A stretch of 64,000 nucleotides of DNA from Thermoguttaceae bacterium. GTDB lineage: Bacteria > Planctomycetota > Planctomycetia > Pirellulales > Thermoguttaceae. Every line of letters begins with the position of its first letter. The first letter of the stretch is position 1. The notes beneath the pieces are model-generated. The model was not told the origin of the DNA. It saw only the letters and a list, made by a program, of their open reading frames with translations, and searched no databases. The stretch lies in the NCBI GenBank assembly GCA_017407125.1, contig JAFQXE010000025.1:218591-282590 (forward strand), read 5' to 3'. Shown here one piece after another: positions 4,969 through 59,488 of the stretch. The position numbers and the translations under genes are program-made.

Positions 4969-5589
4969 ATGACAAATCCAACAACCATTTATAACGATAA
5001 AACCGACGACGTGTTGGTTCAGCCGTCGGCGTTTCGTCTGCCGAAACCGACAATTTCCCTAATAGCCGCCGCAGCAACGATTTGCGTTTTGGGAATCGTG
5101 GCGATTATCTCGCCGTTTTTCTTCAGCGAAATCATAAACGTCGTGCTGGGCTGCGTGATGATCGGAACGGGATTGACGTTTGCTTTTCATATTTTTGCCT
5201 GGAAAAAGGTCAGCCAGCGCATTCTGGTGGGGCTGCTGTCGATTCTCGCGATTATTTCCGGGGCGATTATGCTTTTGCACCCGCTGCTGGGGCTTTACGC
5301 TCTCTCCCTGACGCTGGGCGTCTACTTCCTCGTTGAAGGCTGTTTGAAAATCTTCGGCTTCGGACGTCTTAGCGGCGTCTCCTACGGGATGTCGCTTTTC
5401 AGCGGAATCATGTCCGTCATTTTAGGCGTTTTAATCCTCTGGATTATCCCGATGGACTCAACCTGGATTGTCGGGCTGCTGTTTGGAATCGACCTGTTTG
5501 TCGGCGGAATTACGCTCCTGTCGATATTCATTGCGATTAGGAGAATCCACAAACGGGCGCAGAATGAGGCAGTAGGCAATAGGCAGTAG
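4969..5589 (+). CDS. DUF308 (HdeD-like) membrane protein
   Basis: About 206 residues with six hydrophobic segments in three pairs (e.g. ISLIAAAATICVLGIVAII, IINVVLGCVMIGTGLTFAF, WIVGLLFGIDLFVGGITLL), the usual DUF308/HdeD pattern of an inner-membrane protein of unclear function. The start at 4969 is preceded by AAGGAG at good spacing; the longer frame from 4804 is not supported. The last residues (AVGNRQ) and the stop codon lie inside a GGCAGTA heptamer array, so the C-terminus is repeat-derived. Confidence 0.75.
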   Translation: MTNPTTIYNDKTDDVLVQPSAFRLPKPTISLIAAAATICVLGIVAIISPFFFSEIINVVLGCVMIGTGLTFAFHIFAWKKVSQRILVGLLSILAIISGAIMLLHPLLGLYALSLTLGVYFLVEGCLKIFGFGRLSGVSYGMSLFSGIMSVILGVLILWIIPMDSTWIVGLLFGIDLFVGGITLLSIFIAIRRIHKRAQNEAVGNRQ

Positions 5590-5735
5590 GCAGTAGTGAG
5601 TTGCGAGTAGCGAGTTACGAGAAGTTTTCGAGGGGAACGCTTTGCGTCAATTCCTAATTCATAATTCCGAATTCCGAATTTTTCAACTCCTCACTCCTCA
5701 CCCCTAACTCCTAACTACTCCCTCCCCTCCCCCCC
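5564..5735. repeat. Compound heptamer arrays (GGCAGTA, GCGAGTA, ACTCCTC types)
   Basis: Tandem degenerate 7-mers begin inside the 3' end of the DUF308 gene with AGGCAGTAGGCAATAGGCAG, continue as GAGTTGCGAGTAGCGAGTTA, then after about 30 bp as AATTCCGAATTCCG and CTCCTCACTCCTCACCCC units. They fill the gap up to queG. Confidence 0.7.
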
Positions 5736-8205: not shown

Positions 8206-8327
8206 AAGTAGCTTCTAGCTTTTAGCTGTTAGCTTCTAGCTTGAAAAACAAGGCTAACAGCTAGCAGCTAATAGCTAGCGGCTTTCTATTCCCTACTCCC
8301 TATTCCCCATTCCCTACTCCCTAAACA
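8206..8327. repeat. TAGCTTC and CTATTCC heptamer arrays
   Basis: TAGCTTC-type 7-mers in direct orientation (8207-8240), then in reverse complement (8250-8285), then CCCTATTCCCTACTCCC-type 7-mers up to 8325, just before the nitroreductase start. The first two parts can pair as a hairpin. Confidence 0.75.
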
Positions 8328-22299: not shown

Positions 22300-22655
22300 G
22301 GGGAGGCAGTAGGCAGTAGGCAGTAGTATTTTAGTGTTTGATTCTAACTGATATTATATAAACTATTTTCTGCGATAAAAGGGGGGCAGTTTTTTAATGA
22401 GTATTAATAAAATTCTATATAGTCCGTAAATTTTTCATATTGACTAAAAGTCTTACTTGAGTAAAATATAGGCAGTAGGCAGTAGGCAAGAGACAGTAGT
22501 GATTCGCTTACGGGGGGCGGGTATTACCCGCCAAAAAACAAACAATATTTGACTATCGCGGACAATGTCCGCTCCCCGGAAATAACTCCTCACTCCTCCC
22601 TCCTCACTCCTAACTATTCCCAACTCCGTATTCCCCATTTCCCTATTACGAATCC
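22300..22655. repeat. Intergenic repeat block with double-hairpin element copy 1
   Basis: This 356-bp gap holds GGCAGTA heptamers (22303-22327 and 22470-22498), an AT-rich spacer, a double-hairpin element (22511-22579) and ACTCCTC/CCCTATT heptamers (22585-22650). The element consists of two palindromes, GGCGGGTATTACCCGCC and GCGGACAATGTCCGC, bracketed by CGGGGGG and CTCCCCGG that can pair with each other. The block from about 22490 to 22600 is nearly identical, in opposite orientation, to the insertion in lpxB. Confidence 0.8.
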
Positions 22656-23066
22656 ATGCCACGTAAACGGATATTCCTTCGTCGCGCTACGATTTTGCAC
22701 GCAGGCAGTTTGTTCCTGATGCTGATTGTTTTTATATTCCTGTCAGTTCATCTTGCAAACCGGAGCCTGGAAGAACTCGTGCCGTCGGGCGGTCAGGCGA
22801 CGACAACGCAAAACGGGGAAACCGTTTCCAAAGAACTCAATGCGGCGCAGGCGATGCAAATCGCGAAGATTATCGATTCCGCGCCGTACGAGAATTTACA
22901 GAACAAAACCGAGCTGGCGAAGATCGAACTGGCATACGTCAAAGCCGCTCACGATACGTTTACAATTACCCCCAGCGGCGTTATCAGCCGCCGCGGCTGG
23001 TACAACCAAAGAAAGCTCGACGCCGAACAAGTTGAGCAGATTTTAAAAATAGCATTTCCGAAGTAG
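22656..23066 (+). CDS. Hypothetical single-pass membrane protein
   Basis: 136 residues, not recognised. A basic N-terminus (MPRKRIFLRRATILHAG) is followed by one membrane segment (LFLMLIVFIFLSVHLA) and a soluble, mostly helical remainder rich in Ala, Lys and Glu. Its base composition and codon use match neighbouring genes, supporting a real gene. The ATG follows directly after a heptamer array, with no clear Shine-Dalgarno sequence. A 146-bp palindromic element follows the stop. Confidence 0.55.
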   Translation: MPRKRIFLRRATILHAGSLFLMLIVFIFLSVHLANRSLEELVPSGGQATTTQNGETVSKELNAAQAMQIAKIIDSAPYENLQNKTELAKIELAYVKAAHDTFTITPSGVISRRGWYNQRKLDAEQVEQILKIAFPK

Positions 23067-23072
23067 AATGGA

Positions 23073-23217
23073 ATGGAAGGCGGTAACGAAACGACCAACG
23101 GGAGTGGAGTTACGCAGTTCGCCGAAGGCGAACCCTAAAAATGACCCCAATGTTACGTTCGCCTGACGGCGAATGCGTAATTCCGTTCGCTTCGCTCACT
23201 TCATTACCGCCTTTCAT
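23073..23217. repeat. 146-bp palindromic element, copy 1
   Basis: Bounded by GGCGGTAACGAA and TTCATTACCGCC, with inner hairpins GTTCGCCGAAGGCGAAC and GTTCGCCTGACGGCGAA. The same element lies in reverse complement at 56273-56418. It sits between a gene end and the start of the next gene in both cases. Confidence 0.75.
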
Positions 23218-23250
23218 AATCCTCCAAACACTAACTACCAATTAACACTC

Positions 23251-26200
23251 ATGTCCGATTTGCCTTCTAACAATCGAATTAGCCGTTGGGTTCAGAATTT
23301 ATTGGACTTGACGCTTCGCAACCGTCTTCTTAACCTCAAAGACGCGTCGTTTACCATGGAGCTGATCTGTACCGACGCGGCGGATATAGAAGACCGTCTC
23401 GTTTCGGGATCGCTGCCGTTGAAAAACTTCAAGGAAAGCGAATACGACACCCGTCAATACCGCTCTGCTAAAACAGACCCGGATTCCGGCGAAGTTGTAG
23501 AGGACGAGTTCGCAGACGCCGCGTCCAGTCAGAAGGCGAAAAAGCTCCCGTCGACGGCTCTGTTTGTCAACCAGACGAAAAAGGAAACGGAACGACGTTT
23601 GCTCAAGCTGTATCGTCAGACGAAAACCGACATCAGCGAAGGCGGCGTCAATACGCTCTTTTTGACTATCGGGACGCTCCATTGGCGTGACAAATCCCGA
23701 ACGGAAAAAGAGTATCTGGCTCCGATTATTCTTTTGCCGGTTGAACTGCTTCGCAATTCCGTCAAGGCGGAATTCCGGGTTCAGCGCACCGACGACGACC
23801 CGTTCGTCAACCCGACGCTGTTGGAAGCTCTCCGCCGCGATTTCCAATTGAAAATCACAGACCTGTCAGAGCAGGTAGTCGAAGAGAAAGAGGACATCAA
23901 CGTCAAAACGCTTTTGGACTCGTTTACCGAACAGATTTCCTCCATGACGGGCTGGAAGGTGGAGCCGACGTGCTGGCTGGGACGGTTCTCGTTTGACAAG
24001 TTTATTATGTACACGGATTTGAACAACCGCTGGAAGGAACTGGCGGCGAATCCGGTTGTTAAACAGCTTATCAACCTGACGGACGAACAGGTTCAGGAAG
24101 GATCGGAAGCCAGTCAGGGAGGTACGATCGGCGTCGAAGTCGAGCAGAAAAGCGCGTTCAACGAGCCGCCTGCCGACACCCCGCTGCCGATTGCGGATTA
24201 TCTTAATCTGTTCCTGCCGATTGCCGCTGACGCGTCACAGCGTTCTGCCGTTATTGAGTCAACCAAGGGGCGCAGCTTTGTTCTCTACGGCCCTCCGGGA
24301 ACGGGGAAATCGCAAACGATTACCAACTTAATCGCCTACAACCTGGCGATGGGAAAGAAAGTTCTGTTCGTTTCCGAAAAGCGAGCGGCTTTGGAAGTCG
24401 TGTACAATCGTCTTTCTAAAATTGGGCTGGGGCCGTTCTGTCTGGAACTTCACTCCAACAAGGCGGTAAAGAGAAAGGTTCTCGACCAGTTCGAGGAAGT
24501 CTATAATTTGAACAAAACGAAGGACGTCAACGCTGATTGGACTCGTACGTGCGCCGAACTGACCGAGGTGGAACAGACGCTCGACAACTACGTCCGTCAG
24601 ATTCACAAGCCGATTGTTGGAAACATCTCAGCGTACGATTGCTTCGGCTGGCTGGCGTCGCATGGATACAGCTGGACAACCCGGCTGCCGCGTCTGTACG
24701 ACGGCGCGATTGAAGAGCAGGAATTGCCGGATTTGATTAACGCAGCGGAAGAACTGCAGTCGCACGCGGCGGAAATGGATCCTGTTATGCTCAAAGCGCT
24801 TTCTCCGCTGAAACGGTTCAAGTGGAATCCGGAACTGGAAGCCCAGATGATCGAAAGCGCGTCGGCGTTTCGTCCGGCGGTTGAAGGCGTGAACCAGGTC
24901 TATAAACAGGCGGAAGAGGTTTTGTCGCTGCCGGATATCAAAGACGCGTCCGCCAAGATCACGCTGGCGTCACAGATTTTGGAGTTCCTCCAGGACTCCG
25001 GTCCGCTGCCGTCCAACCTGCTTTCCGAGGCGTTTGGAAAATTCATGCCGCTGGTTGACATGTTTGTCGAACAGGCGAAACAGTACAAAGACGCTGTCGA
25101 AGCTTTGAAACTGTTTGACCTCAATCGGGTTCTCAATCTCCGCGTCGTTCAGCTTAACGACCATATTGCATACGTTAAAAAGTCGTTCTTTATGTTCCGA
25201 TTCATGAAGAAAAGGAGCGTTGTCAAAGAATACGCCAGCCTCGTTCCGCCAACTAACGGCAAGCTGACGTTTGAAATGCTGGAAGCGGCGGCGCCAAAAA
25301 TCGCCGCGTTGCAGGAATCGTACAAACTCCTTTCAGAACACGGGGACGAAATCCTCGCCGCCGTCGGCGACTGGAACGGCGAATCTGCCAATCTGGAAGA
25401 ACTGCTTCCATCCGTTCAGCGAGGGAAAGTCCTTCGAGAAATTCTGTCCGTTGATTGCTTGACCGCGGCTGACCGCAAGCGGTTATTCGATTTCGTGTGC
25501 GAGCAGACAGCCAATCCCAACGCGAACTTTGCCGCTCTGAATGCAGAATTCCAGGCGGCGGTTAAAGAGTACCGCATGGCAATGGAAACGTTCAACCAGT
25601 CCGTTCCGACTCGCACGATGACGCCCATTGAAGCGATGGCTCTTATTGACGCTTTGCCGCAAGCCGGGCGCTCGCTGCGTCAGTTCTCGTTCTGGACGGA
25701 CGTCCGCAACGACGCCAGAAGAATGCACCTGGGACCTTTGGCAAAGGCGATTGAACAGGGCAAAATCGATATTGCCAAGCAGTCTGCGGCGGAAGCCATG
25801 GAAGCGTCTTATCGATGGCAGCTGATTTACAAAGAGCTGGAATTCAACGACGCGTTGAACCGTTTTGACGGCGTAAGTCAAAACCGCTGTGTTGAACGAT
25901 TCTGCTCGTTGGACGACAGTTTCTCGAAGCTGTCAACTCGCAAGATTCTCCTTGCGCTGTCGACGGAAGCCTCCCGCGCCGTTTCGGAATCGACCACAAC
26001 AGGCTCCGCTCTCCGTCCGGAAGGCGACCTGTTACGTCGGGAAATGAACAAGAAGATGCGGTTCCTTCCCATTCGTTCTTTGCTGGAACGCGCCCCGAAT
26101 TTGACGCGTCGGCTCAAGCCGTGTTTTCTCATGTCGCCGCTGTCGGTTGCCCAATACCTGCCGACCAACGACGCGGGATTTGACCTGGTCGTCTTCGACG

Positions 26201-27444
26201 AGGCGTCACAGATTCCAACCTGGGACGCTGTCGGCGTTATCGCCCGAGCGAAAAACGCGATTATCGTCGGCGACCCCAAACAGCTGCCTCCAACCGCCTT
26301 CTTCCAGCGTCAGGATGCTGTTACAGAAGAAATTACGGAACAGAACGAAGACGAAGTCGAAGACATGGAAAGCATTCTCGACGAGTGCATCGCCATCGGC
26401 ATGGACGGCATGAAGCTCAACACCCACTACAGAAGCAAGAACGAGTCCCTCATCGCCTTTAGCAACCATTACTACTATCAGGACGAACTGGACACATTCC
26501 CTGCTCCGGACAGAGCGGGCGGCGAATCTACCTCGGCACAGTCCTCAATTCGCGGCGTTCATTTCGAGTACGTACCCAACGCGGTTTACGACAAGAGCAA
26601 AACGCGAACCAACAAGGCGGAAGCGCAGCGCGTTGTCGAGATTGTTCTCGACCGCTTGAGCAATCCCAAAACGTCGGCTCGTTCGATGGGCGTTGTCGCC
26701 TTCTCCGCTCAGCAGAAAGACCTCATTGAAGACATGCTCGATCAGGCGGCGGACAGCAATCCGGAACTGGCAAACGCGATGTCTGAAGCGATGGCGGAAC
26801 CGCTGTTCGTGAAAAACCTGGAAAACGTTCAAGGCGACGAGCGCGACTGCATTATTTTCAGCATCGGATACGCGCCGGACGCCAGCGGGGCGTTCGCCAT
26901 GAACTTCGGTCCGCTCAACAAGAGCGGCGGTCAGCGGCGTCTGAACGTTGCCGTTACCCGCGCCAAGGAAGAGATTATCGTCGTGTCGTCCATTTACGCG
27001 TCACAGATTGATTTGAACCGCACCAGCGCCGTCGGTCCGGCACATCTCAAAGCGTACCTGGAATTCGCCCAGTCCGGCCGCCCAACCTGGGCAGACGCCT
27101 CCAGCGCCGGTTCGGACTCCTCCGCAGACAAAAACCGCTTTATCCAGTGCGTTGCCGATTTCCTCCGGGAAAACGGCTACGAAGCAGACTGCGGAGTCGG
27201 CTTTTCAGACTACAAAATCGACATTGCCGTCGTCGACCCGAAGAACCCCAACCGCTACTGTCTGGCTGTCGAATGTGACGGAACCGTGTACAAGAAGGCA
27301 AAGATCGCCCGCGACAGAGAAAAGTCTCGTCCGTCCATGCTGGAAGGGCTTGGCTGGAAACGCTGCCGCGTCTGGTCGACGGAATGGTTTACCGACCCTG
27401 AAAAATCCAAAGAGGACTTGCTCAAATGCCTTAAGGGAAAATAG
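23251..27444 (+). CDS. DUF4011 superfamily I helicase with C-terminal nuclease
   Basis: 1397 residues from the ATG at 23251; the in-frame upstream extension lies in the palindromic element. The N-terminus (RWVQNLLDLTLRNRLLNL) is the DUF4011 signature. Helicase motifs are complete: Walker A GPPGTGKSQT near 350, FDEASQIPTW near 980, GDPKQLPPT, HYRSKNESLIAFSN, VQGDERDCIIFS, NVAVTRAK. The last ~100 residues form a PD-(D/E)xK-type nuclease of the MTES_1575/DUF559 kind (KIDIAVVDP ... CLAVECDG ... EGLGWKRCRVWSTEWF). This architecture is known in single-gene antiphage candidates (Hhe-like). It could alternatively serve in DNA repair. Single gene here. Confidence 0.85.
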   Translation: MSDLPSNNRISRWVQNLLDLTLRNRLLNLKDASFTMELICTDAADIEDRLVSGSLPLKNFKESEYDTRQYRSAKTDPDSGEVVEDEFADAASSQKAKKLPSTALFVNQTKKETERRLLKLYRQTKTDISEGGVNTLFLTIGTLHWRDKSRTEKEYLAPIILLPVELLRNSVKAEFRVQRTDDDPFVNPTLLEALRRDFQLKITDLSEQVVEEKEDINVKTLLDSFTEQISSMTGWKVEPTCWLGRFSFDKFIMYTDLNNRWKELAANPVVKQLINLTDEQVQEGSEASQGGTIGVEVEQKSAFNEPPADTPLPIADYLNLFLPIAADASQRSAVIESTKGRSFVLYGPPGTGKSQTITNLIAYNLAMGKKVLFVSEKRAALEVVYNRLSKIGLGPFCLELHSNKAVKRKVLDQFEEVYNLNKTKDVNADWTRTCAELTEVEQTLDNYVRQIHKPIVGNISAYDCFGWLASHGYSWTTRLPRLYDGAIEEQELPDLINAAEELQSHAAEMDPVMLKALSPLKRFKWNPELEAQMIESASAFRPAVEGVNQVYKQAEEVLSLPDIKDASAKITLASQILEFLQDSGPLPSNLLSEAFGKFMPLVDMFVEQAKQYKDAVEALKLFDLNRVLNLRVVQLNDHIAYVKKSFFMFRFMKKRSVVKEYASLVPPTNGKLTFEMLEAAAPKIAALQESYKLLSEHGDEILAAVGDWNGESANLEELLPSVQRGKVLREILSVDCLTAADRKRLFDFVCEQTANPNANFAALNAEFQAAVKEYRMAMETFNQSVPTRTMTPIEAMALIDALPQAGRSLRQFSFWTDVRNDARRMHLGPLAKAIEQGKIDIAKQSAAEAMEASYRWQLIYKELEFNDALNRFDGVSQNRCVERFCSLDDSFSKLSTRKILLALSTEASRAVSESTTTGSALRPEGDLLRREMNKKMRFLPIRSLLERAPNLTRRLKPCFLMSPLSVAQYLPTNDAGFDLVVFDEASQIPTWDAVGVIARAKNAIIVGDPKQLPPTAFFQRQDAVTEEITEQNEDEVEDMESILDECIAIGMDGMKLNTHYRSKNESLIAFSNHYYYQDELDTFPAPDRAGGESTSAQSSIRGVHFEYVPNAVYDKSKTRTNKAEAQRVVEIVLDRLSNPKTSARSMGVVAFSAQQKDLIEDMLDQAADSNPELANAMSEAMAEPLFVKNLENVQGDERDCIIFSIGYAPDASGAFAMNFGPLNKSGGQRRLNVAVTRAKEEIIVVSSIYASQIDLNRTSAVGPAHLKAYLEFAQSGRPTWADASSAGSDSSADKNRFIQCVADFLRENGYEADCGVGFSDYKIDIAVVDPKNPNRYCLAVECDGTVYKKAKIARDREKSRPSMLEGLGWKRCRVWSTEWFTDPEKSKEDLLKCLKGK

Positions 27445-27762
27445 CCATTAGCTTTTAGCTACTAGCTGTTAGCTTCAGATTCAATCCGGTAAGTTGGTTT
27501 TTAAACACGAAAAACACGAAATAAGCGAAGGTTACGAAAAATTTTTAGGAATAAAAATAATTGTAATTAAATAATCCATAAAAATTATCTTTTCGTGTTT
27601 GTTTCGTTCTTTTCGTGTATTTCGTGTTAAAAATACTATTGAGCAGGCAAAACGCCTGCTTTTTGTTTGTAGGATCAACTTGTCGGTTGACCTATAAAAA
27701 CTGCCAGTTTCTGGCTCAAAAGGCTGGAAGCTGGCAGTAAAGGCTAATAGCTAAAAGCTAAA
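27445..27762. repeat. Intergenic block: TAGCTTC heptamers and ACACGAA long hairpin copy 1
   Basis: TAGCTxx heptamers occur at 27447-27475 and 27740-27765. The element at 27499-27633 begins with AAACACGAAAAACACGAA and ends with its inverse TTTCGTGTATTTCGTGTTAAA, so it can form one long AT-rich hairpin. Short palindromes (GCAGGCAAAACGCCTGC, 27643-27660) follow. No gene is supported in this 318-bp gap. Confidence 0.7.
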
Positions 27763-28929
27763 TTAGAACTTCGTCGAGTCGAAGTTGTATGCGTCTTCGC
27801 GGTTGCCCAGAGCGGTATAAATGAGCGGGTCGATATTAAAGGAGATTTCCCGGGTGGAACCATCGCACATGCAGACGTTAAAACCAACGCGGTGAGCGCT
27901 GCCCATAGCGTAGCGGAATTTACCGCTTTGCTTTTCGCTGTCGCTTAAGCGTCTGTCCTGATACGGCAAATATTCGTTGGGATTCGTTCCGATTCTTGTA
28001 GCTCCCTGAACAGCGGACATGTTTGTCCACGTCTTAACTCCGTTGGTTCCCGTTTGCGGGTCAAATTTCACCCCAGTTCCAACAATTCTCACGTTCGAGC
28101 AGGAAATCCCGGTAAACATGCAAACGTCCTCGCCTTTTTCACAGCCGCCCTGATAATTGTCTTTATCAAGAAACTTCTCGCTGAACATGATTGTAGTCGT
28201 CATACCGTCTCGAACGTAGTCAGACGACACTTCGCTTCCAGCAAAGCAAATCCCAAACGACTTCCATTGAACCTGTTTGAAGTTTTTCGTCCAGGTTGAG
28301 TTTGACCCTTCCGTATAACTTTGGGGGTAGCCCGCGCCGGTCGTATCGAGATTATAGAAGCAATCTGTTGTATTTCCGCCGTTAGCGGCATAGTCGCATT
28401 TAGCAACCATTGATGCGACTGTAACGCTTCGTTGCCCTGTGTCTCCGCCATAAAGAACCGCTGTGCTGGAACGCAGCGGGTAAGTCTGCGAACGACGCCG
28501 GGTTGGACAGTTACAAATTTTTAACGACGATTCCACCAGGTCTTTGACGCTTCTTTGAGCGTTGGCGTCATCGTAGGCGGCAGAGTTGTTCGCCAAATGG
28601 TTGTAGTTGAACAGACGTTCCTGATCCAGATACGGCAAAATCGAGTACAGCCAGCCGCCAGGCTGAGTTCGTCCAAAACCGTAGTCTGGATAGCCGACCC
28701 ATTTCGGTCCCCAGCCGCCAGAAGGGAAATATTTTTGACGTTCCAAATGCGCGCTGCTGGCGCCGCCAATTTGACGGAGATTGTTTTTACACTGCATGTT
28801 TCGGGCAGCTTCACGAGCGCTGTTGACAGCTGGAAGAAGAAGCCCGATCAAGGTTGAAATAATTGCAATAACAACCAAAAGCTCTACGAGCGTAAAAGCG
28901 CGAATATCGCGTTGAAAATTATGTTTCAT
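27763..28929 (-). CDS. DUF1559 pseudopilin-like protein
   Basis: About 388 residues. The N-terminus ([26 protein letters not shown]) is a class III prepilin cleavage/membrane signal, followed by [18 protein letters not shown]. The C-terminus carries the H-x9-DG motif ([12 protein letters not shown]). This combination defines the DUF1559 family greatly expanded in planctomycetes; role in surface filaments or pseudopilus-like structures is inferred. The start at 28929 is chosen at MKHNFQRD, thirteen residues inside the longest frame, because it gives the correct prepilin leader. Confidence 0.9.
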
Positions 28930-28944
28930 GGGAGTTGAGGAGGT

Positions 28945-29144
28945 AAAAGGTGAATTAGCAATTAGCAATTGTCAATTAGCAATTACACAAGCGCTACAAT
29001 AATTACTAACTGCTAATCCTAATTATAACAAGTTTAAGTAAAAAATCCAGTAGTATTAAAATATCTTGGGAAAATTTTTTATTTGCATGAGAAACTGGGC
29101 AAGGAGGGATGTTTTGGAGTGCGGCGGCTTGCCGTCGCACTCCA
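28945..29144. repeat. TTAGCAA heptamers and GGAGTGCG hairpin
   Basis: TTAGCAA-type 7-mers at 28950-28985, an AT-rich stretch, then a 30-base palindrome 29115-29144 (TGGAGTGCGGCGGC ... CGTCGCACTCCA), related to the ends of the element at 11179-11377. It lies 10 bp before the lpxB stop. Confidence 0.6.
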
Positions 29145-29154
29145 TAATTCGCCG

Positions 29155-30471
29155 CTAATAGTACATGTTCTTTAAAATAATCTCAGCAGCTTTTTCAGCG
29201 GCTCCGGGGCGGCAGACGTGGCTTTTGAGTTCTTCCAGCTTTTCTTTTTTCTGCTCGTATTCTTCCGGATCGGAAATCCAGGTGAGAATGTTTTCTGCGA
29301 TGGCTTCGGACTCGTCTCGAGCGGTCAGGAATTCCGGAAAGAGCGCTTCGCGAGGATTGGGGGCGATTGGCAAGTCTGGAGCGCGCACAGGAACTGCTCC
29401 GTATTCCAGCAAATTGACCAACGTGATATATTTCACTCTTCGGAAAATGCTTTGAAGGAACATTCCCAGCCAGCTGGTTTTGTAAAGAATCGCGGTTGGA
29501 ATCTCATGGTAAAGCAGTTCCAAAGAAACGGAGCCGGAAACCGCCATGACAGCGTCTGAAGACGCTATAATCTTCGACGCAGCGCCCACTTCAATAACGA
29601 TGTCGTCCAGTCGGGCTTTCGCCGCTTTAGGAGCGATGATTCCCCAATGCTCGTCTTTGAACGCGCCTACTCGAAACTGAATCGGCGTGGCTGATACTTG
29701 GGCAAATTGTTCCTGAATAATTCGCGCCGCCTTGAGCATGGTTGTAATATTCTGCTCGACTTCCTGAGTGCGCGAGCCGGGCAGGATGCCTATTTGGATA
29801 GTTTTTTTCGGCGAGTCGTTGGGTGAGGAGTGAGGAGTTATTTCCGGGGAGCGGACATTGTCCGCGCTAGTCAAATATTGTTTGTTTTTTGGCGGGTAAT
29901 ACCCGCCCCCCGTAAGCGAATCACTACTGCCTATTCCCTCTTCCCTATTCCCTAGCTCAAACTTCTCCGTTTCGTCAAAAAACGGATGCCCAACATAGAT
30001 GCATCTGCATCCTTGATCCTGAAACCATTGCGTTTCAAACGGCAAACCGGACAGAATGCAGTCCACCCATTTCCGCATCTTTCGGACTCGCCACTGCGCC
30101 CAGCCCCAGATCTGAGGCGGCGAATAATAATATACGGGAATTCCAGCGTTATGAGCGCGTTTGGCGATATGCCAGTTAAAGCCGGGATAGTCAATCAGGA
30201 CGACGGCGTCCGGCTTTTCAATTTCAAAATAGTCCTGCGCCTGGGAGGCAAGACTGAAAAAAGTATTGATGTTCCATAAAACGCGTCCCAGCCACATCAC
30301 AGCCAAAGACGTCAGATCAAACATCAGTTCCGCCCCCGCTTCCTGCATTTTGGGACCGCCGAAGCCAACGCATCGCAATTCCTCGCCTGTATAGGCGGCT
30401 TTTAGCGCTCGAATCAAGTTGGCGCCATGGATGTCCCCGCTGGGCTCTCCAACAGAAAAGAATATTTTCAT
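29155..30471 (-). CDS. lpxB: Lipid-A-disaccharide synthase with repeat-derived insertion
   Basis: 438 residues against about 380-390 usually. LpxB joins UDP-2,3-diacylglucosamine and lipid X, in lipid A synthesis at the inner membrane. Motifs: FFSVGEPSGDIHGANLIRAL at the N-terminus, IDYPGFNWHIAKRA, YYSPPQIWGWAQWRVRKM, YVGHPFFDE, and ILPGSRTQEV. Between YVGHPFFDETEK and ILPGSR, which are normally close, about 49 residues (171-219) are encoded by heptamer arrays and a double-hairpin element, in frame. The rest is intact, so an expressed protein is likely. Start at 30471 overlaps the SelA-like stop (ATGA); the longer frame is an artefact. Confidence 0.92.
   Translation of the reverse strand: MKIFFSVGEPSGDIHGANLIRALKAAYTGEELRCVGFGGPKMQEAGAELMFDLTSLAVMWLGRVLWNINTFFSLASQAQDYFEIEKPDAVVLIDYPGFNWHIAKRAHNAGIPVYYYSPPQIWGWAQWRVRKMRKWVDCILSGLPFETQWFQDQGCRCIYVGHPFFDETEKFELGNREEGIGSSDSLTGGGYYPPKNKQYLTSADNVRSPEITPHSSPNDSPKKTIQIGILPGSRTQEVEQNITTMLKAARIIQEQFAQVSATPIQFRVGAFKDEHWGIIAPKAAKARLDDIVIEVGAASKIIASSDAVMAVSGSVSLELLYHEIPTAILYKTSWLGMFLQSIFRRVKYITLVNLLEYGAVPVRAPDLPIAPNPREALFPEFLTARDESEAIAENILTWISDPEEYEQKKEKLEELKSHVCRPGAAEKAAEIILKNMYY
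29815..29958. repeat. Repeat block inserted inside lpxB (double-hairpin element copy 2)
   Basis: Contains the element core 29844-29912 (palindromes GCGGACATTGTCCGC and GGCGGGTAATACCCGCC) with ACTCCTC heptamers on one side and CCCTATTC heptamers on the other. Core and flanks are nearly identical to 22490-22600 inverted. The length keeps the lpxB frame and no stop codon occurs in the coding direction. Confidence 0.85.
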
Positions 30472-31829
30472 CTTATAAATGCCTCTACTAACGCTATGTC
30501 CTGACTGGGCAGAACCGTTCTCATATCCAAAAACAGGAATCTTTCCGCTGCGGTTCCCAAAACGGCGGGAGAGCCTTGAGTCAATCGTTTGCCTAATTCC
30601 GCTGGCGTCATGCCTTTCGGTTGAACAGCAATTCGGCATGTTGGCAGTTTTATTGACAGCCACTGATTGTCGATCGTTGACTGCTCTACGATTTCCGTTT
30701 GCGCGGAGTCCACCCAGTCGGAAACGACGATCTGCTTTTGAATTCGCTGCGCCCGATTGGCAAGATTGGCTTCGGAAAAATGCAGAATCTGTTCAATGGG
30801 AATCGAATTGACGCCGCGGTCTGGCTGAGAGTACAGCAACAGCGTCTGCTCCAGCGCCGCCAATAAATATGGACTGCAAAGCGTCGCCTTCGCCAGCAAG
30901 TCCGCTCGACACAGGTCGATAAACGCTTTTCGTCCTAAAATCATTCCGCAAACGGGACCGCCAAACAACGCCCCGCTTTGCATAATAACAACGTCCGCCC
31001 CGTCTGTCAAGGCAGAAGCCGCGCTGACGGTATCTTTGCCGCCTATCAGACCTGACAAGCCAATGTCGACAATAAGCGGAATCTTGCGAAGCTTGGCGAT
31101 TTTAGACATCTCCGCGATAGTCGGCTGAACGCGGCCAGATTCTTTTTCCGTAGCGGAGTAGATGTACAAAAACGCTCGAACGTTTTCCGGAACGGATGAG
31201 AAATCGTCTGCCGTCGTCCGGTTGACGCTTCCGACTTCAATCGTTGAGCATCCCAACTCCTGAAGAATGTCAGTAATCCGACAGCCGGAAGGAAGTTCGA
31301 ATAACTGTCCTCGACTTATCGCGACAGGGGCTGAGGCATTTTGCCCCGCCCGTTTATTCAAGGCGTGAAGAACCAAAGCCCAGCCGGCTGTCGCCGTATT
31401 GACGGGCATAACGCTTTCCGCGCCAGCAAGCTGATTGATCAGGGATTCTACGCTTCTAAGAAACTGAGCGTTGTCCCATTTTCCGACTGGGCGCCCCATC
31501 GCCGCGTAGTCTTTAGCCAAATCCGTCATGACGTTAATCGCCTGACCTGCCAGCGGCGCCGATCCCAATTCCGGGGGAAACAGACGTCCGGTCGCGTTTA
31601 TCGTCGGAACAAGACGCGCCGGCTCGTTTTGCAGCAGCTTGTCTGCAATCCGATCCGCAACTTCCGTTACCGTCGGCAAGGACATGTCCAGAGCCGACTC
31701 TTTGGTCTGGAGCGCCAGTTCGCCCAAGACCAAAAGAGCGGTCGATACAACTTCACCCCGGTTGAGCTTGGTTATCAGCCCCTTTACCAGCGGGACTTCA
31801 AGGATTTCGTTTATGGTTGGAAGATTCAT
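30468..31829 (-). CDS. SelA-like PLP-fold protein without the PLP lysine
   Basis: 453 residues, similar in length and layout to L-seryl-tRNA(Sec) selenium transferase: an N-terminal helical domain with VPTINATGR near residue 80, AISRGQLFELPSGCRITDI, EVGSVNRTTADD, and VDIGLSG. In the segment that in SelA reads SGDKLLGGP, this protein has QSGALFGGP, so the residue that should form the Schiff base with PLP is Ala (codon GCG). Other changes are VMTDLAKDYAAMGRPVGKW in place of the usual glycine/arginine-rich loop. It is probably not a selenium transferase. It overlaps lpxB by 4 bp; heptamers lie directly upstream. Confidence 0.7.
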   Translation of the reverse strand: MNLPTINEILEVPLVKGLITKLNRGEVVSTALLVLGELALQTKESALDMSLPTVTEVADRIADKLLQNEPARLVPTINATGRLFPPELGSAPLAGQAINVMTDLAKDYAAMGRPVGKWDNAQFLRSVESLINQLAGAESVMPVNTATAGWALVLHALNKRAGQNASAPVAISRGQLFELPSGCRITDILQELGCSTIEVGSVNRTTADDFSSVPENVRAFLYIYSATEKESGRVQPTIAEMSKIAKLRKIPLIVDIGLSGLIGGKDTVSAASALTDGADVVIMQSGALFGGPVCGMILGRKAFIDLCRADLLAKATLCSPYLLAALEQTLLLYSQPDRGVNSIPIEQILHFSEANLANRAQRIQKQIVVSDWVDSAQTEIVEQSTIDNQWLSIKLPTCRIAVQPKGMTPAELGKRLTQGSPAVLGTAAERFLFLDMRTVLPSQDIALVEAFIR

Positions 31830-32190
31830 ATTAGTTGCGAGTTACGAGTTGCGAGTTGCGAGAGGTTTTTGCAAGGAACGAACGCAAAACGTCTCATTGT
31901 TGTTATTTATTATACCCGATTTCTCTTTCTTATCATAGGGGGATTTCTTCTCAAAGGGGGTCTTTTACCAAAAAATAAAAAGAGTAAAATGAGAATAAGA
32001 GTAGAGAGAGGAGCAGGCAGTAGTGGAGGCAGTAGGCAGTAGGCAATAGGCAGTAGGGTAATCATTACTAAGCCTAATGCCTCTTGTCTTCTCTTGCCTA
32101 ATCTCCTCTCTCGGCGCTTTACCTTCTTTTTCGCAAAGCGTTAACGACTCCTCGCAACTAACTACTGCCTACTGCCTATTGCCTAATGCC
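31830..32190. repeat. Intergenic heptamer block upstream of tsaD
   Basis: GCGAGTT-type 7-mers (31833-31862), an AT-rich segment, GGCAGTA 7-mers (32018-32055), CCTAATC/TCTCC motifs and a final inverse block TACTGCCTACTGCCTATTGC (32160-32190). The tsaD start codon lies in the last units. The 32018-32055 and 32160-32190 parts are inverse copies and could pair. No gene is supported in this 356-bp gap. Confidence 0.75.
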
Positions 32191-33262
32191 TAAATATATT
32201 CTTACTATCGAGAGTTCCTGCGATGAGACCGCGGCGGCGGTTATCGGCGACGACGGCGTTGTGTATGCCGACGCGCTGGCGACGCAGGAAAAACTGCACG
32301 CTCTTTACGGGGGCGTCGTTCCGGAACTGGCGTCCAGAGCGCATTGCCAGCGCATCAACCCGATTCTGGACTTGACGCTCAAAAAAGCGCAGGAGAAAAT
32401 TCCCGGATTTACGTTCAATCAGCTTTCTGCCATTGCGGTTGCCAACGCGCCGGGATTGGCAGGGTCGCTGCTGGTCGGTCTGACGGCGGCGAAAACTCTG
32501 GCGGTTGTTTTTGACAAGCCGCTCATCGCCGTTGACCATCTTCAGGCACATCTGTACGCCGCCCAGCTTTACGCCAACTCTCAGGCAAGAGAAGCGGGAT
32601 TAGAGCCGACAAGCGTCTTTCCCTGCGTTGGACTTATCGTTTCCGGCGGACATTCCACGATTTACGAGTGCAAGTCGCCCATTGACTTTGTTACCCTCGG
32701 GTCAACCATAGACGACGCTGCAGGCGAGGCGTTCGACAAAGTCGCCGCCATGCTCGGTCTGCCGTATCCCGGAGGTCCCAGCATCCAAAAAGCCGCTGTG
32801 GACGGCAACCCAAAAGCGTACAATTTTACCCGCTCGCTTCTCAACGACCCGTCACGTTTGGACTTCAGCTTCAGCGGTCTGAAAACCGCGGTTCGATACG
32901 AACTTGTCGGGCCGGGCGAACGCGATTTTCCCGACTTGTCGCAGGAACCGCAGCGTCGAGCCGATCTGGCGGCGTCGTTTCAGGCTGCTGTCGTAGACTG
33001 TTTGGCGGGAAAAGCGGTTTTGGCTCTGAAAAAGACAGGGTACAAAACCCTTTGCGTCGGCGGAGGCGTCGCGGCGAATAAAGCTCTGCGAGATCGTCTG
33101 GAAAAAGAATCCAAAAACAGACGGTTCAAACTGTATATTCCGCCGTTAAAGCTCTGTACTGACAACGCCGTTATGGGAGCTGTCGCGTGGGAAATGTATC
33201 GCGCTGGACGATTCGCTGATTTGTCCCTCGATATTGTCCCGGGATTAAGAAGACCTAAATAA
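32186..33262 (+). CDS. tsaD: tRNA N6-adenosine threonylcarbamoyltransferase
   Basis: 358 residues, normal length. TsaD transfers threonylcarbamoyl to A37 of ANN-decoding tRNAs, with TsaB, TsaC and TsaE. Motifs: ILTIESSCDETAAAV at the N-terminus, YGGVVPELASRAH, GLIVSGGHSTIY, DDAAGEAFDKVAAMLGLPYPGGP, DFSFSGLKTA, and the ATP-binding VGGGVAANKALR. The ATG at 32186 is part of the sequence GCCTAATGCCTAAA that ends a heptamer array, so no typical Shine-Dalgarno precedes it; a later start would cut the conserved strand. Confidence 0.95.
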   Translation: MPKYILTIESSCDETAAAVIGDDGVVYADALATQEKLHALYGGVVPELASRAHCQRINPILDLTLKKAQEKIPGFTFNQLSAIAVANAPGLAGSLLVGLTAAKTLAVVFDKPLIAVDHLQAHLYAAQLYANSQAREAGLEPTSVFPCVGLIVSGGHSTIYECKSPIDFVTLGSTIDDAAGEAFDKVAAMLGLPYPGGPSIQKAAVDGNPKAYNFTRSLLNDPSRLDFSFSGLKTAVRYELVGPGERDFPDLSQEPQRRADLAASFQAAVVDCLAGKAVLALKKTGYKTLCVGGGVAANKALRDRLEKESKNRRFKLYIPPLKLCTDNAVMGAVAWEMYRAGRFADLSLDIVPGLRRPK

Positions 33263-36339: not shown

Positions 36340-36497
36340 AGAGGGAATAGGGAATGGGGAATAGGGAATAGGGAATAGGGAATGGTTTAAGGAGTGGTAA
36401 GTGGTAAGTAGTAAGTGGTAAGTTAGACAAGCGCTTGCGTACTAACCACTAACCACTAAAAACTCATAACTACTCCCTATTCCCTACTCCCTGCTCC
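36340..36497. repeat. GGAATAG, GGTAAGT and CTAACCA heptamer arrays
   Basis: The gap between the epimerase and the lipoprotein gene consists almost entirely of 7-mers: GGAATAG (36345-36385), GTGGTAA/GTAAGTG (36392-36425), a spacer GCGCTTGCGTAC, then CTAACCA (36440-36460) and CCCTATT (36472-36495). The same order and the spacer with GCTTGCGT recur at 44277-44345. Confidence 0.75.
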
Positions 36498-37661
36498 CTA
36501 ATTCAGCGGCGCAATGTTCATTAAAATGGACGGCGTGGAATCCTCAATGGATTCTGGATTGACAGGAATGGCGGCTGACGGCGCTTCCTCGGCAGGTCGA
36601 ATCAATGACGTCTGAACGACAGGAATGACGTTATATTCAGACGGGATTTGACGCGCTGTTGACGCGGGAGACGTTTTTGCAACAATCGGGTTTCCCGTTG
36701 CCAGATTGGCGACTTCATGATAGCCCAGCGAACAGAAATCCGATTCTGTCATAACGGCGCCAGTATTTTTTACTGTTACCATTCGGGTGTTATCGAGGCG
36801 ATTCTTCAGTTCATGAGGAACGTCTTTATTATTAGACAATCCAGGCAGGGTTTGGGAATCAAATGAAGACGGAGAATCTGGCGGCGTTATCGGATAAGCG
36901 GGATTCGTTCCCTGCTGAGCAGGGGCTTTTGGCGAAGGCGAGGAAGTCGATGGCGAGAATTCGGATTCAAATCGATTGGGATCCAAACTTCCCGGTAAAA
37001 ACGAACCCTGAGAAGGCGTATACGCCTGCGCTTCACTTTCGGAAATTTCCGTCTGATATTGAACCGGCGCGATATCATTGTTGTTTCGAGTTGAATCAGA
37101 CGCGATTGCTGGAGAAACCGGCGCTTGAATTGGATTGATATTCGGAACGGGCGGCATGTCAGGCAGCGGCGGCATAGCCGGGTTGGTTTCGGAATTAGAA
37201 GCAATTTGTGAGGAAGGAGGCGTTATCGGCGAAATGTCCATTGGCGAGGCGTTTTCTTCTTTATAGGCAACTGGAGCCGCGTTTTTAGACGCGTCGGCGT
37301 TTGCCTGAGCCGTCATTCGTTCTACAGCCGCGTAATTCTCCGCCGGATTGGCTGGCGGTTGATTGAGTTGATCCAGAGATTCGTTATATTTTGGACCGCT
37401 CGGGTTAGAATATCCGCTGTCTGCCAGACGATGTTCTCCCAGAGCAATGGTCGCTTCCGATTTGGCTTTTTTTGCCGGAGGAATTATGTCGCCGTCCGTT
37501 TGAACAGCTTGATGATTTTCTTTATACGTAGCCAACTGATCGGATTTATCCATGTCTTTACGACCAAAAGACCATTTCGAGCCGCCTGTACTGCGACAGC
37601 CAACAAGCGAAACGACGACTAATAACGCCGTGAGCGCCAATCGGAGCTGAAATCTGTTCAT
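36498..37661 (-). CDS. Lipoprotein of unknown function, low complexity
   Basis: About 387 residues. The N-terminus (MNRFQLRLALTALLVVVSLVGCRS) is a lipoprotein signal with lipobox LVGC; the start is set at 37661 to give this. The rest is rich in Pro, Ser, Asn and Ala with no domain recognised, and reads as a disordered, surface- or envelope-attached protein; the C-terminus (LMNIAPLN) is short and hydrophobic. Possibly a planctomycete-specific envelope protein. No operon partner. Confidence 0.7.
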   Translation of the reverse strand: MNRFQLRLALTALLVVVSLVGCRSTGGSKWSFGRKDMDKSDQLATYKENHQAVQTDGDIIPPAKKAKSEATIALGEHRLADSGYSNPSGPKYNESLDQLNQPPANPAENYAAVERMTAQANADASKNAAPVAYKEENASPMDISPITPPSSQIASNSETNPAMPPLPDMPPVPNINPIQAPVSPAIASDSTRNNNDIAPVQYQTEISESEAQAYTPSQGSFLPGSLDPNRFESEFSPSTSSPSPKAPAQQGTNPAYPITPPDSPSSFDSQTLPGLSNNKDVPHELKNRLDNTRMVTVKNTGAVMTESDFCSLGYHEVANLATGNPIVAKTSPASTARQIPSEYNVIPVVQTSLIRPAEEAPSAAIPVNPESIEDSTPSILMNIAPLN

Positions 37662-39615: not shown

Positions 39616-39699
39616 GCGGGGCGCGGACATTCCGGGGAGCGGACATTGTCCGCGATAAATAATATGTAAGTTTTTTAGGCGGGTAATACCCGCCCCCCG
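39616..39699. repeat. Double-hairpin element copy 3 (with partial duplication)
   Basis: Core at 39632-39699 with palindromes GCGGACATTGTCCGC and GGCGGGTAATACCCGCC between CGGGGAG and CCCCCCG. A partial extra left arm (GCGGGGCGCGGACATT, 39616-39630) precedes it. Located between the phosphodiesterase and the tRNA-Arg promoter. Confidence 0.75.
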
Positions 39700-39773
39700 T
39701 AAACGTTGCATCATATTTTATGCCCTCCAATTTTGAACGCACCCCTCTCCGATTTTTTGCGGTTCTTCCCGCC

Positions 39774-42863: not shown

Positions 42864-42938
42864 TGGGCGTGCATGGACTCGAACCATGGACCTCGTCCTT
42901 ATCAGGGACGCGCTCTAACCAAACTGAGCTACACGCCC
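42864..42938 (-). tRNA. tRNA-Ile (anticodon GAT), copy A
   Basis: Cloverleaf on the minus strand: acceptor GGGCGTG / CACGCCC with discriminator A, D-arm GCTC...GAGC, anticodon stem CGTCC/GGACG with loop CTGATAA (GAT), T-arm ATGG...CCAT. No encoded CCA. Identical to copy B. Confidence 0.95.
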
Positions 42939-43007: not shown

Positions 43008-43082
43008 TGGGCGTGCATGGACTCGAACCATGGACCTCGTCCTTATCAGGGACGCGCTCTAACCAAACTGAGCTACACGCCC
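43008..43082 (-). tRNA. tRNA-Ile (anticodon GAT), copy B
   Basis: Same 75-base sequence as copy A, 69 bp upstream of it in the direction of transcription. Both copies stand apart from any rRNA gene, unlike the usual spacer location of tRNA-Ile(GAT). Confidence 0.95.
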
Positions 43083-45216: not shown

Positions 45217-45328
45217 TTTTAAACACGAAATACACGAAATAAGCGAAAAAGACGAAATAATTTTAAAATATATTTTTAAAAATTTTCGTGTCCTTTCGTT
45301 CTATTCGTGTTTTTCGTGTTTTAAAAAA
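45217..45328. repeat. ACACGAA long hairpin copy 2
   Basis: Starts AAACACGAAATACACGAA and ends TTCGTGTTTTTCGTGTTTTA with an AT-rich centre, an imperfect 110-bp hairpin. Follows the ExbB-like gene. Confidence 0.7.
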
Positions 45329-46511: not shown

Positions 46512-46550
46512 GTTGTTTATAATATTGTTAGTTGCGAGTAGCGAGAGGAT

Positions 46551-46658
46551 TTTTAACACGAAATACTCGAAATAAGCGAAAAAGACGAAAGAATTTTAAA
46601 AAATATTTTTAAAAATTTTCGTGTCCTTTCGTTCTATTCGTGTTTTTCGTGTTTAAAA
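46551..46658. repeat. ACACGAA long hairpin copy 3
   Basis: TTAACACGAAATACTCGAAA at the left, TTCGTGTTTTTCGTGTTTAA at the right, with the same centre as copy 2. Lies between hpt and the HEAT gene. Confidence 0.7.
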
Positions 46659-46674
46659 AACTACTGCCTATTGC

Positions 46675-48587: not shown

Positions 48588-48727
48588 AATCTAAAACGTT
48601 TTGTATCAAGGTATTATGAAAAATCAACAATAGTTGACGTCTATAATCCTTATTCGGATTATTCGTTATAATCGGAATAATCGATACAGAACTTTAGGGG
48701 TATGGAGTTGAAAGGCGTAAACGCTTT

Positions 48728-48794
48728 CGGGGAGCGGACATTGTCCGCGAAATCAAAGGTTGATTGTATTTAGGCGGGTAATACCCGCCCCCCG
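48728..48794. repeat. Double-hairpin element copy 4
   Basis: CGGGGAG, palindrome GCGGACATTGTCCGC, 22-bp spacer, palindrome GGCGGGTAATACCCGCC, CCCCGG. It ends 6 bp before the stop of the RND pump gene and separates it from the TolC gene, so it may affect the operon's relative expression. Confidence 0.8.
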
Positions 48795-48800
48795 GAAACA

Positions 48801-59376: not shown

Positions 59377-59488
59377 ATTTAAACACAAAATACACGAAAT
59401 AAGCGAAAAAGACGAAAGAGTTTTTAAATATATTTTTTAAAATTTTCGTGTTTTTTCGTCATTTTTGTGTTTTTCGTGTTTAAAAAAT
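59377..59488. repeat. ACACGAA long hairpin copy 4
   Basis: Begins TTTAAACACAAAATACACGA and ends TTTTTCGTGTTTAAA around an AT-rich centre. Upstream of the DUF4091 gene; the gap 59361-59666 holds this and the 84-bp element and no gene. Confidence 0.7.

Follow-up and report, generated by a model that had tools for sequence, protein, structure and literature searches.

The essential gene for lipid-A-disaccharide synthase (lpxB) in the 64,000-nucleotide stretch of planctomycete DNA analysed here (the window) combines two kinds of repeat, a REPIN-like hairpin core being nested within heptamer arrays in the linker between the two domains of the enzyme. The core, which is associated with a transposase, very probably entered a linker that already bore heptamers, in frame, and is tolerated there. 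The interest of the case lies in recent in-frame insertions of an element of the REP type, for which a transposase candidate exists, into single-copy conserved enzymes; as empty sites in sister species stand beside these insertions, both the tolerance and the mobility are open to testing. The relatives used for comparison are metagenome genomes of Thermoguttaceae (Planctomycetota) from goat, water buffalo and other gut or rumen samples, among them three sister species of the same genus (G001, G002 and G003; the present genome is G000).

The lpxB gene occupies 29155..30471 on the reverse strand as a single open frame of 438 codons with its ATG at 30471, and a search with PF02684 finds one locus, making it the sole copy in the genome. 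PF02684 matches the protein at 9e-64 in two stretches that flank the insert, and TIGR00215 matches at 1.6e-55 with a score that, with the insert present, falls just under the cut-off (188.5 versus 190.25); the domain model thus matches on either side of the insert. LpxK, a further enzyme of the same pathway, is also found in the genome. Comparison with the three sister species gives, for the gene without its linker, a dN/dS of 0.06-0.09, a value that spans the whole divergence from the sisters and not the time after the insertion alone, and the gene is therefore under purifying selection. Both domains are intact and predicted to be folded, with a pLDDT mostly of 70-95 (AlphaFold2, 7-sequence alignment) and one additional low-pLDDT stretch at residues 343-374. 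The top PDB matches of the predicted structure are three LpxB entries, though the global rmsd is so poor (~21 A) that the placement of the domains relative to each other is unreliable. The first-pass annotation, which had read lpxB as open and otherwise intact, was right on both points.

The repeat-derived linker comprises codons 173-221 (29809..29955, reverse strand), lies outside the LpxB models and consists of 49 variable residues with the conserved YVGHPFFDETEK on one side and ILPGSR on the other. It encodes a double hairpin with a heptamer array before and after it. Read in gene sense, the 5' array (29918..29953) passes from the TAGGGAA type into the TAGGCAG type, its outer part resembling the lpxB array of G003 and its inner part the block at 22490; the core (29841..29917) follows, and the 3' array (29815..29840) is of the ACTCCTC type, with a junction like that at 22583 and other loci, all three on the reverse strand. 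Escherichia coli LpxB does not cover the linker, as 23 residues stay unaligned between aligned stretches (gap 171-193, 5w8n/5w8s). Structure prediction for the loop gives a pLDDT below 50 for residues 173-221, which are predicted to be disordered (AlphaFold2, 7-sequence alignment). From the translation, the insert is predicted to yield the tryptic peptides QYLTSADNVR, EEGIGSSDSLTGGGYYPPK and SPEITPHSSPNDSPK.

How much of this is extra depends on the comparison. The interval from GHP to ILPGSR measures 66 residues here against a mode of 28 in the family sample, an excess of 38, and is 53 residues in G003, 44 in G002 and 37 in G001, so that the excess over the three sister species is 29, 22 and 13 residues. 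The earlier count of about 49 extra codons is thus correct as the length of the repeat linker and too high as a net gain; the sisters already carry repeats there. Their intervals hold in-frame heptamer arrays from which the double hairpin is absent. A repeat-derived loop of some kind is therefore present in LpxB of all four species of the genus, its sequence differing widely, and the deeper relatives in the family sample, searched for the same segment, are without it, the opposite of what the first-pass annotation had named as refuting its view. One LpxB linker has been hit independently in two genera, since in LpxB of G035, from another genus (locus L082), the same linker holds ~90 nt of an unrelated, high-copy long-hairpin repeat. 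That repeat has at least 42 matches in the G035 genome and does not clearly adjoin the one G035 Y1 transposase locus looked at.

The core measures about 77 nt in lpxB and about 56-77 nt across its family. It follows the pattern CTTACGGGGGGCGGGTATTACCCGCC-spacer-CGCGGACAATGTCCGCTCCCCGGAAA, in which the two ends are related hairpin units in inverted orientation and CGGGG/CCCCG closes the ends; as a single strand it folds into a cloverleaf (z of -3.7 and -4.1 versus shuffles). GGGG(A/G)G precedes the stems, and the canonical REP foot GT[AG]G is absent. Within the window, sequence matches place a sister core in an intergenic region (22506..22582, forward strand) and two further cores without heptamers at 39630..39704 and 48726..48799 (both reverse strand). 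A sample of eight contigs (C32, C54, C30, C37, C17, C22, C56 and C55; 1.58 Mb, so that counts from it apply to ~36% of the genome) contains 55 copies, part of them partial, and the sequence of the lpxB block has at least 45 matches in the genome; with such numbers the repeat in lpxB is not due to chance. Among 40 genera sampled the core was found in one, the present genus, where G003 has only a 24-base trace and G001 a few copies. An Rfam scan of the 64-kb window returned tRNAs only, and promoter and terminator scans of 22300-32300 gave results near chance.

LpxB is not the only enzyme concerned. In-frame cores also occur in squalene-hopene cyclase, in MnmE (directly after the DTAG motif), in two ArnT-like glycosyltransferase paralogs, in a DUF58 protein, which has two in tandem, and in others of unknown function. 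The sister species supply the empty sites. G000 and G002 share the core in squalene-hopene cyclase, which lacks it in G001 and G003. Among the MnmE genes only that of G000 contains it, that of G003 being empty and those of G001 and G002 carrying another repeat with heptamers at that place, and both the lpxB site and the 22490 locus are without it in G001-G003. The insertions into MnmE and squalene-hopene cyclase are not clean, as the element takes the place of ~15-36 nt of host sequence, and inspection by eye of the empty sites of MnmE, squalene-hopene cyclase and lpxB found no clean target-site duplication. Ten of the 55 cores lie within open reading frames of at least 200 aa in a crude gene call, whose overlap rule dropped an eleventh, in the second glycosyltransferase, and ~20% of copies are in frame in genes. 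The remainder, about 44 of 55, lie outside such frames, which make up 78% of the 1.58-Mb sample; genes are thus strongly avoided.

A candidate for the enzyme that moves the core is a 214-aa Y1 transposase (L139, contig C37) with the motifs NHVH and YIYNNP. Upstream of its gene stand three cores in tandem, of which the contig end truncates the first, and downstream lies an inverted partial core. The best NCBIfam family of the protein is NF047646 (REP_Tyr_transpos), at 62.4 bits and so below the cut-off of 80, and its best solved match, a weak one (E 0.005), is the TnpA-REP 4er8. Its motifs fit NH[IFV]H and YIxNNP, which characterise subclass 2.4 of the TnpA-REP proteins (PMC6006769), with WK instead of WQ in the W motif; among the RAYTs, subclasses 2.6 and 3 have feet other than GT[AG]G (PMC6006769). 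A 91% ortholog in G002 (L218), apparently broken near its 5' end, has full cores on both sides in inverted orientation, in G003, where this core is lacking, a 69% relative has another hairpin at its flanks, and G001 has no close relative. High copy number, inverted hairpins and a RAYT-like transposase gene flanked by the element together characterise the core as a REPIN-like, transposase-associated miniature element, and the core would be moved by a RAYT-type transposase, for which L139 is the candidate. As four genomes only are compared, the link between transposase and core is an association and not a proof; in these four genomes, from four species, neither a transposition intermediate nor a within-species polymorphism of the core was seen. 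The genome has ten Y1_Tnp loci in all (L137-L146), and the core was found near L139 only.

The heptamers are a second and far more abundant system, with 223 period-7 arrays in the 1.58 Mb against none in a 453-kb Markov control. Thirty-six of them lie inside open reading frames, some being ordinary coding repeats. Around the intergenic sister core, repeat patterns mark one array on the left (22469..22499) and one on the right (22585..22615), both on the forward strand. Heptamers flank a minority of core copies only in the 1.58 Mb, most being without them; the cores that are nested sit in arrays of several different types, G002 included; and heptamer-palindrome-heptamer structures occur also without a core. 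Taken together, this makes the core a separate unit. Intergenic arrays forming inverted arms around palindromes are further seen in the window at 5567-5725, 8209-8323 and 36342-36500, and a long near-perfect heptamer run is present in a sister species (L213, G001 C80). A literature search found no paper on heptamers in Planctomycetes.

The first-pass annotation had noted a near-identical inverted block at 22490-22600 and had concluded that a unit of more than 100 bp, heptamers included, had moved. The block is indeed there: 22469-22598 is an inverted near-copy of the lpxB block (93% over 130 bp, E 1e-50). The cores of the two blocks agree at 76 of 77 bases, the next-best copies being clearly more distant, and both share a non-heptameric left junction TAGTGATTCGC and right junction AAATAACTCCTCACTCCTC, with a related left junction at C30:123629. 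These shared inner heptamer junctions, read from the sequences themselves, link the lpxB and 22490 copies by descent beyond the core. That they arose by transposition of the whole heptamer and double-hairpin block as one unit is what such sister cores would suggest, yet we consider it unlikely: G001-G003 have heptamers but no core at the lpxB and 22490 loci alike, the outer heptamers of lpxB match those of G003 lpxB while the inner ones match 22490, and most cores are free of heptamers, those that are nested sitting in arrays of several types. The mosaic of outer and inner heptamers, though it rests on few diagnostic bases, suggests recombination via the heptamers, and recombination via pre-existing heptamer arms explains the shared junctions at least as well as transposition of a unit. 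An alternative is that the core was inserted twice into small palindromes of one kind; at both loci G003 has heptamers around ATTCGCC-NNN-GGCGAAT where the core would be.

Our preferred account, an entry of the core into a linker with heptamers in place, would run as follows. In the ancestor of the genus the inter-domain linker of LpxB would first have acquired heptamer arrays, flanking a small palindrome in this branch, and in the lineage of the window the core would then have taken the place of the palindrome. Either the transposase inserted the core into the heptamer hairpin, or the linker may have recombined with a sister block like that at 22490, the heptamers serving as homology arms. 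The core itself would be non-autonomous and depend on a tyrosine transposase of the RAYT (TnpA-REP) type whose gene lies in the same genome. The altered linker stayed in frame, and ribosomes probably read through it to give a disordered loop that LpxB accommodates.

A draft genome of 57 contigs and a repeat of many copies raise the suspicion that misassembly of the metagenome bin copied the repeat into lpxB. This is extremely improbable, because both flanks continue one gene in frame with 90% identity to G003 and because repeats are in frame at this very site in the independently assembled sister species; the same core is, moreover, found in squalene-hopene cyclase in the assemblies of two species. 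Mobile bypass elements, which are skipped by ribosomes, exist in some yeast mitochondria, and a compact hairpin inside conserved genes could in principle be left untranslated in the same manner. Against such bypassing, which we regard as very unlikely here, stands the open host frame in all in-gene copies examined, though the search demanded an open frame. When cores lying between co-directional frames were scanned, in a limited survey and with no homology test, the pairs obtained could be adjacent genes and none was clearly a conserved gene split in two. The presence of a repeat-derived loop in all four species of the genus might also mean that the insert is retained for a useful function of the peptide in LpxB; a loop whose sequence varies widely between species and which is predicted to be disordered makes this hardly plausible.

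REP elements carry 'extragenic' in their name, and the core, too, is mostly extragenic (about 44 of 55 copies). It further resembles the REPINs and REP sequences with their RAYT (TnpA-REP) transposases (Bertels and Rainey 2011, PMC3116915; Nunvar 2010, PMC2817692) in being a high-copy inverted hairpin doublet with a cloverleaf fold and with copies on both sides of a transposase gene, and in that the sister species G003 pairs a diverged transposase with a different repeat. It differs from them in having no GT[AG]G foot, in that about one fifth of its copies lie in open reading frames and in being nested, in some cases, in heptamer hairpins. In Opitutus terrae, intragenic GTAG/CGTC REPs form in-frame dimers in conserved genes and add 20-30 residues (Di Nocera 2013, PMC3733652), and flexible loops and linkers were proposed as the sites that tolerate them (PMC3733652). 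The present core is likewise in frame in conserved genes, but belongs to another phylum, has another repeat sequence, and comes with empty sister sites, a flanking transposase gene and heptamer arrays. Rickettsia palindromic elements, according to the account of Ogata 2000 given in PMC10969869, are ~150 bp long and in frame in many unrelated genes; the architecture, compared from the literature, is similar, whereas the element here is of ~77 nt and flanks a transposase gene.

Two further systems share single traits with the repeats described here. TIRtrons/TIRYT, which have the motif GGGGWSAS and are numerous in R. baltica as genes and as repeats (PMC3733652), also combine a tyrosine transposase gene with G-rich inverted repeats, but GGGGAGCG / GGGGGGCG does not fit that motif, position 7 being C in both hairpins. 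The heptamer repeats of cyanobacteria and Beggiatoaceae (PMC4679880) are tandem 7-mers scattered over the genome as well; here the 7-mers are of many types, frequently form inverted arms about a palindrome and in several cases lie in frame in genes. In-frame REPs (PMC3733652) and in-frame Rickettsia elements (PMC10969869) are thus already known, and what the present gut planctomycete adds is a REPIN-like element of non-GTAG type that comes with a candidate transposase and is nested in heptamer hairpins.

We speculate, as a tentative possibility, that the heptamer hairpins act as standing docks in coding sequence and that an enzyme loop with such a dock becomes a cassette site. If this were true, hairpins borne by a transposase would be exchanged there through insertion and through recombination between heptamer arms, and LpxB, MnmE and other enzymes would gain species-specific loops encoded by repeats.

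The window holds other repeats besides these. At 23072-23217, on the 5' edge of a 1423-aa frame, lies another dispersed family with many tens of matches in G001-G003. An imperfect family of the ACACGAAA/CGAAATAA type recurs at 45217-45327, 46550-46660, 59377-59487 and 27498-27547, and two near-identical tRNA genes (42864-42938 and 43008-43082) lie 144 bp apart.
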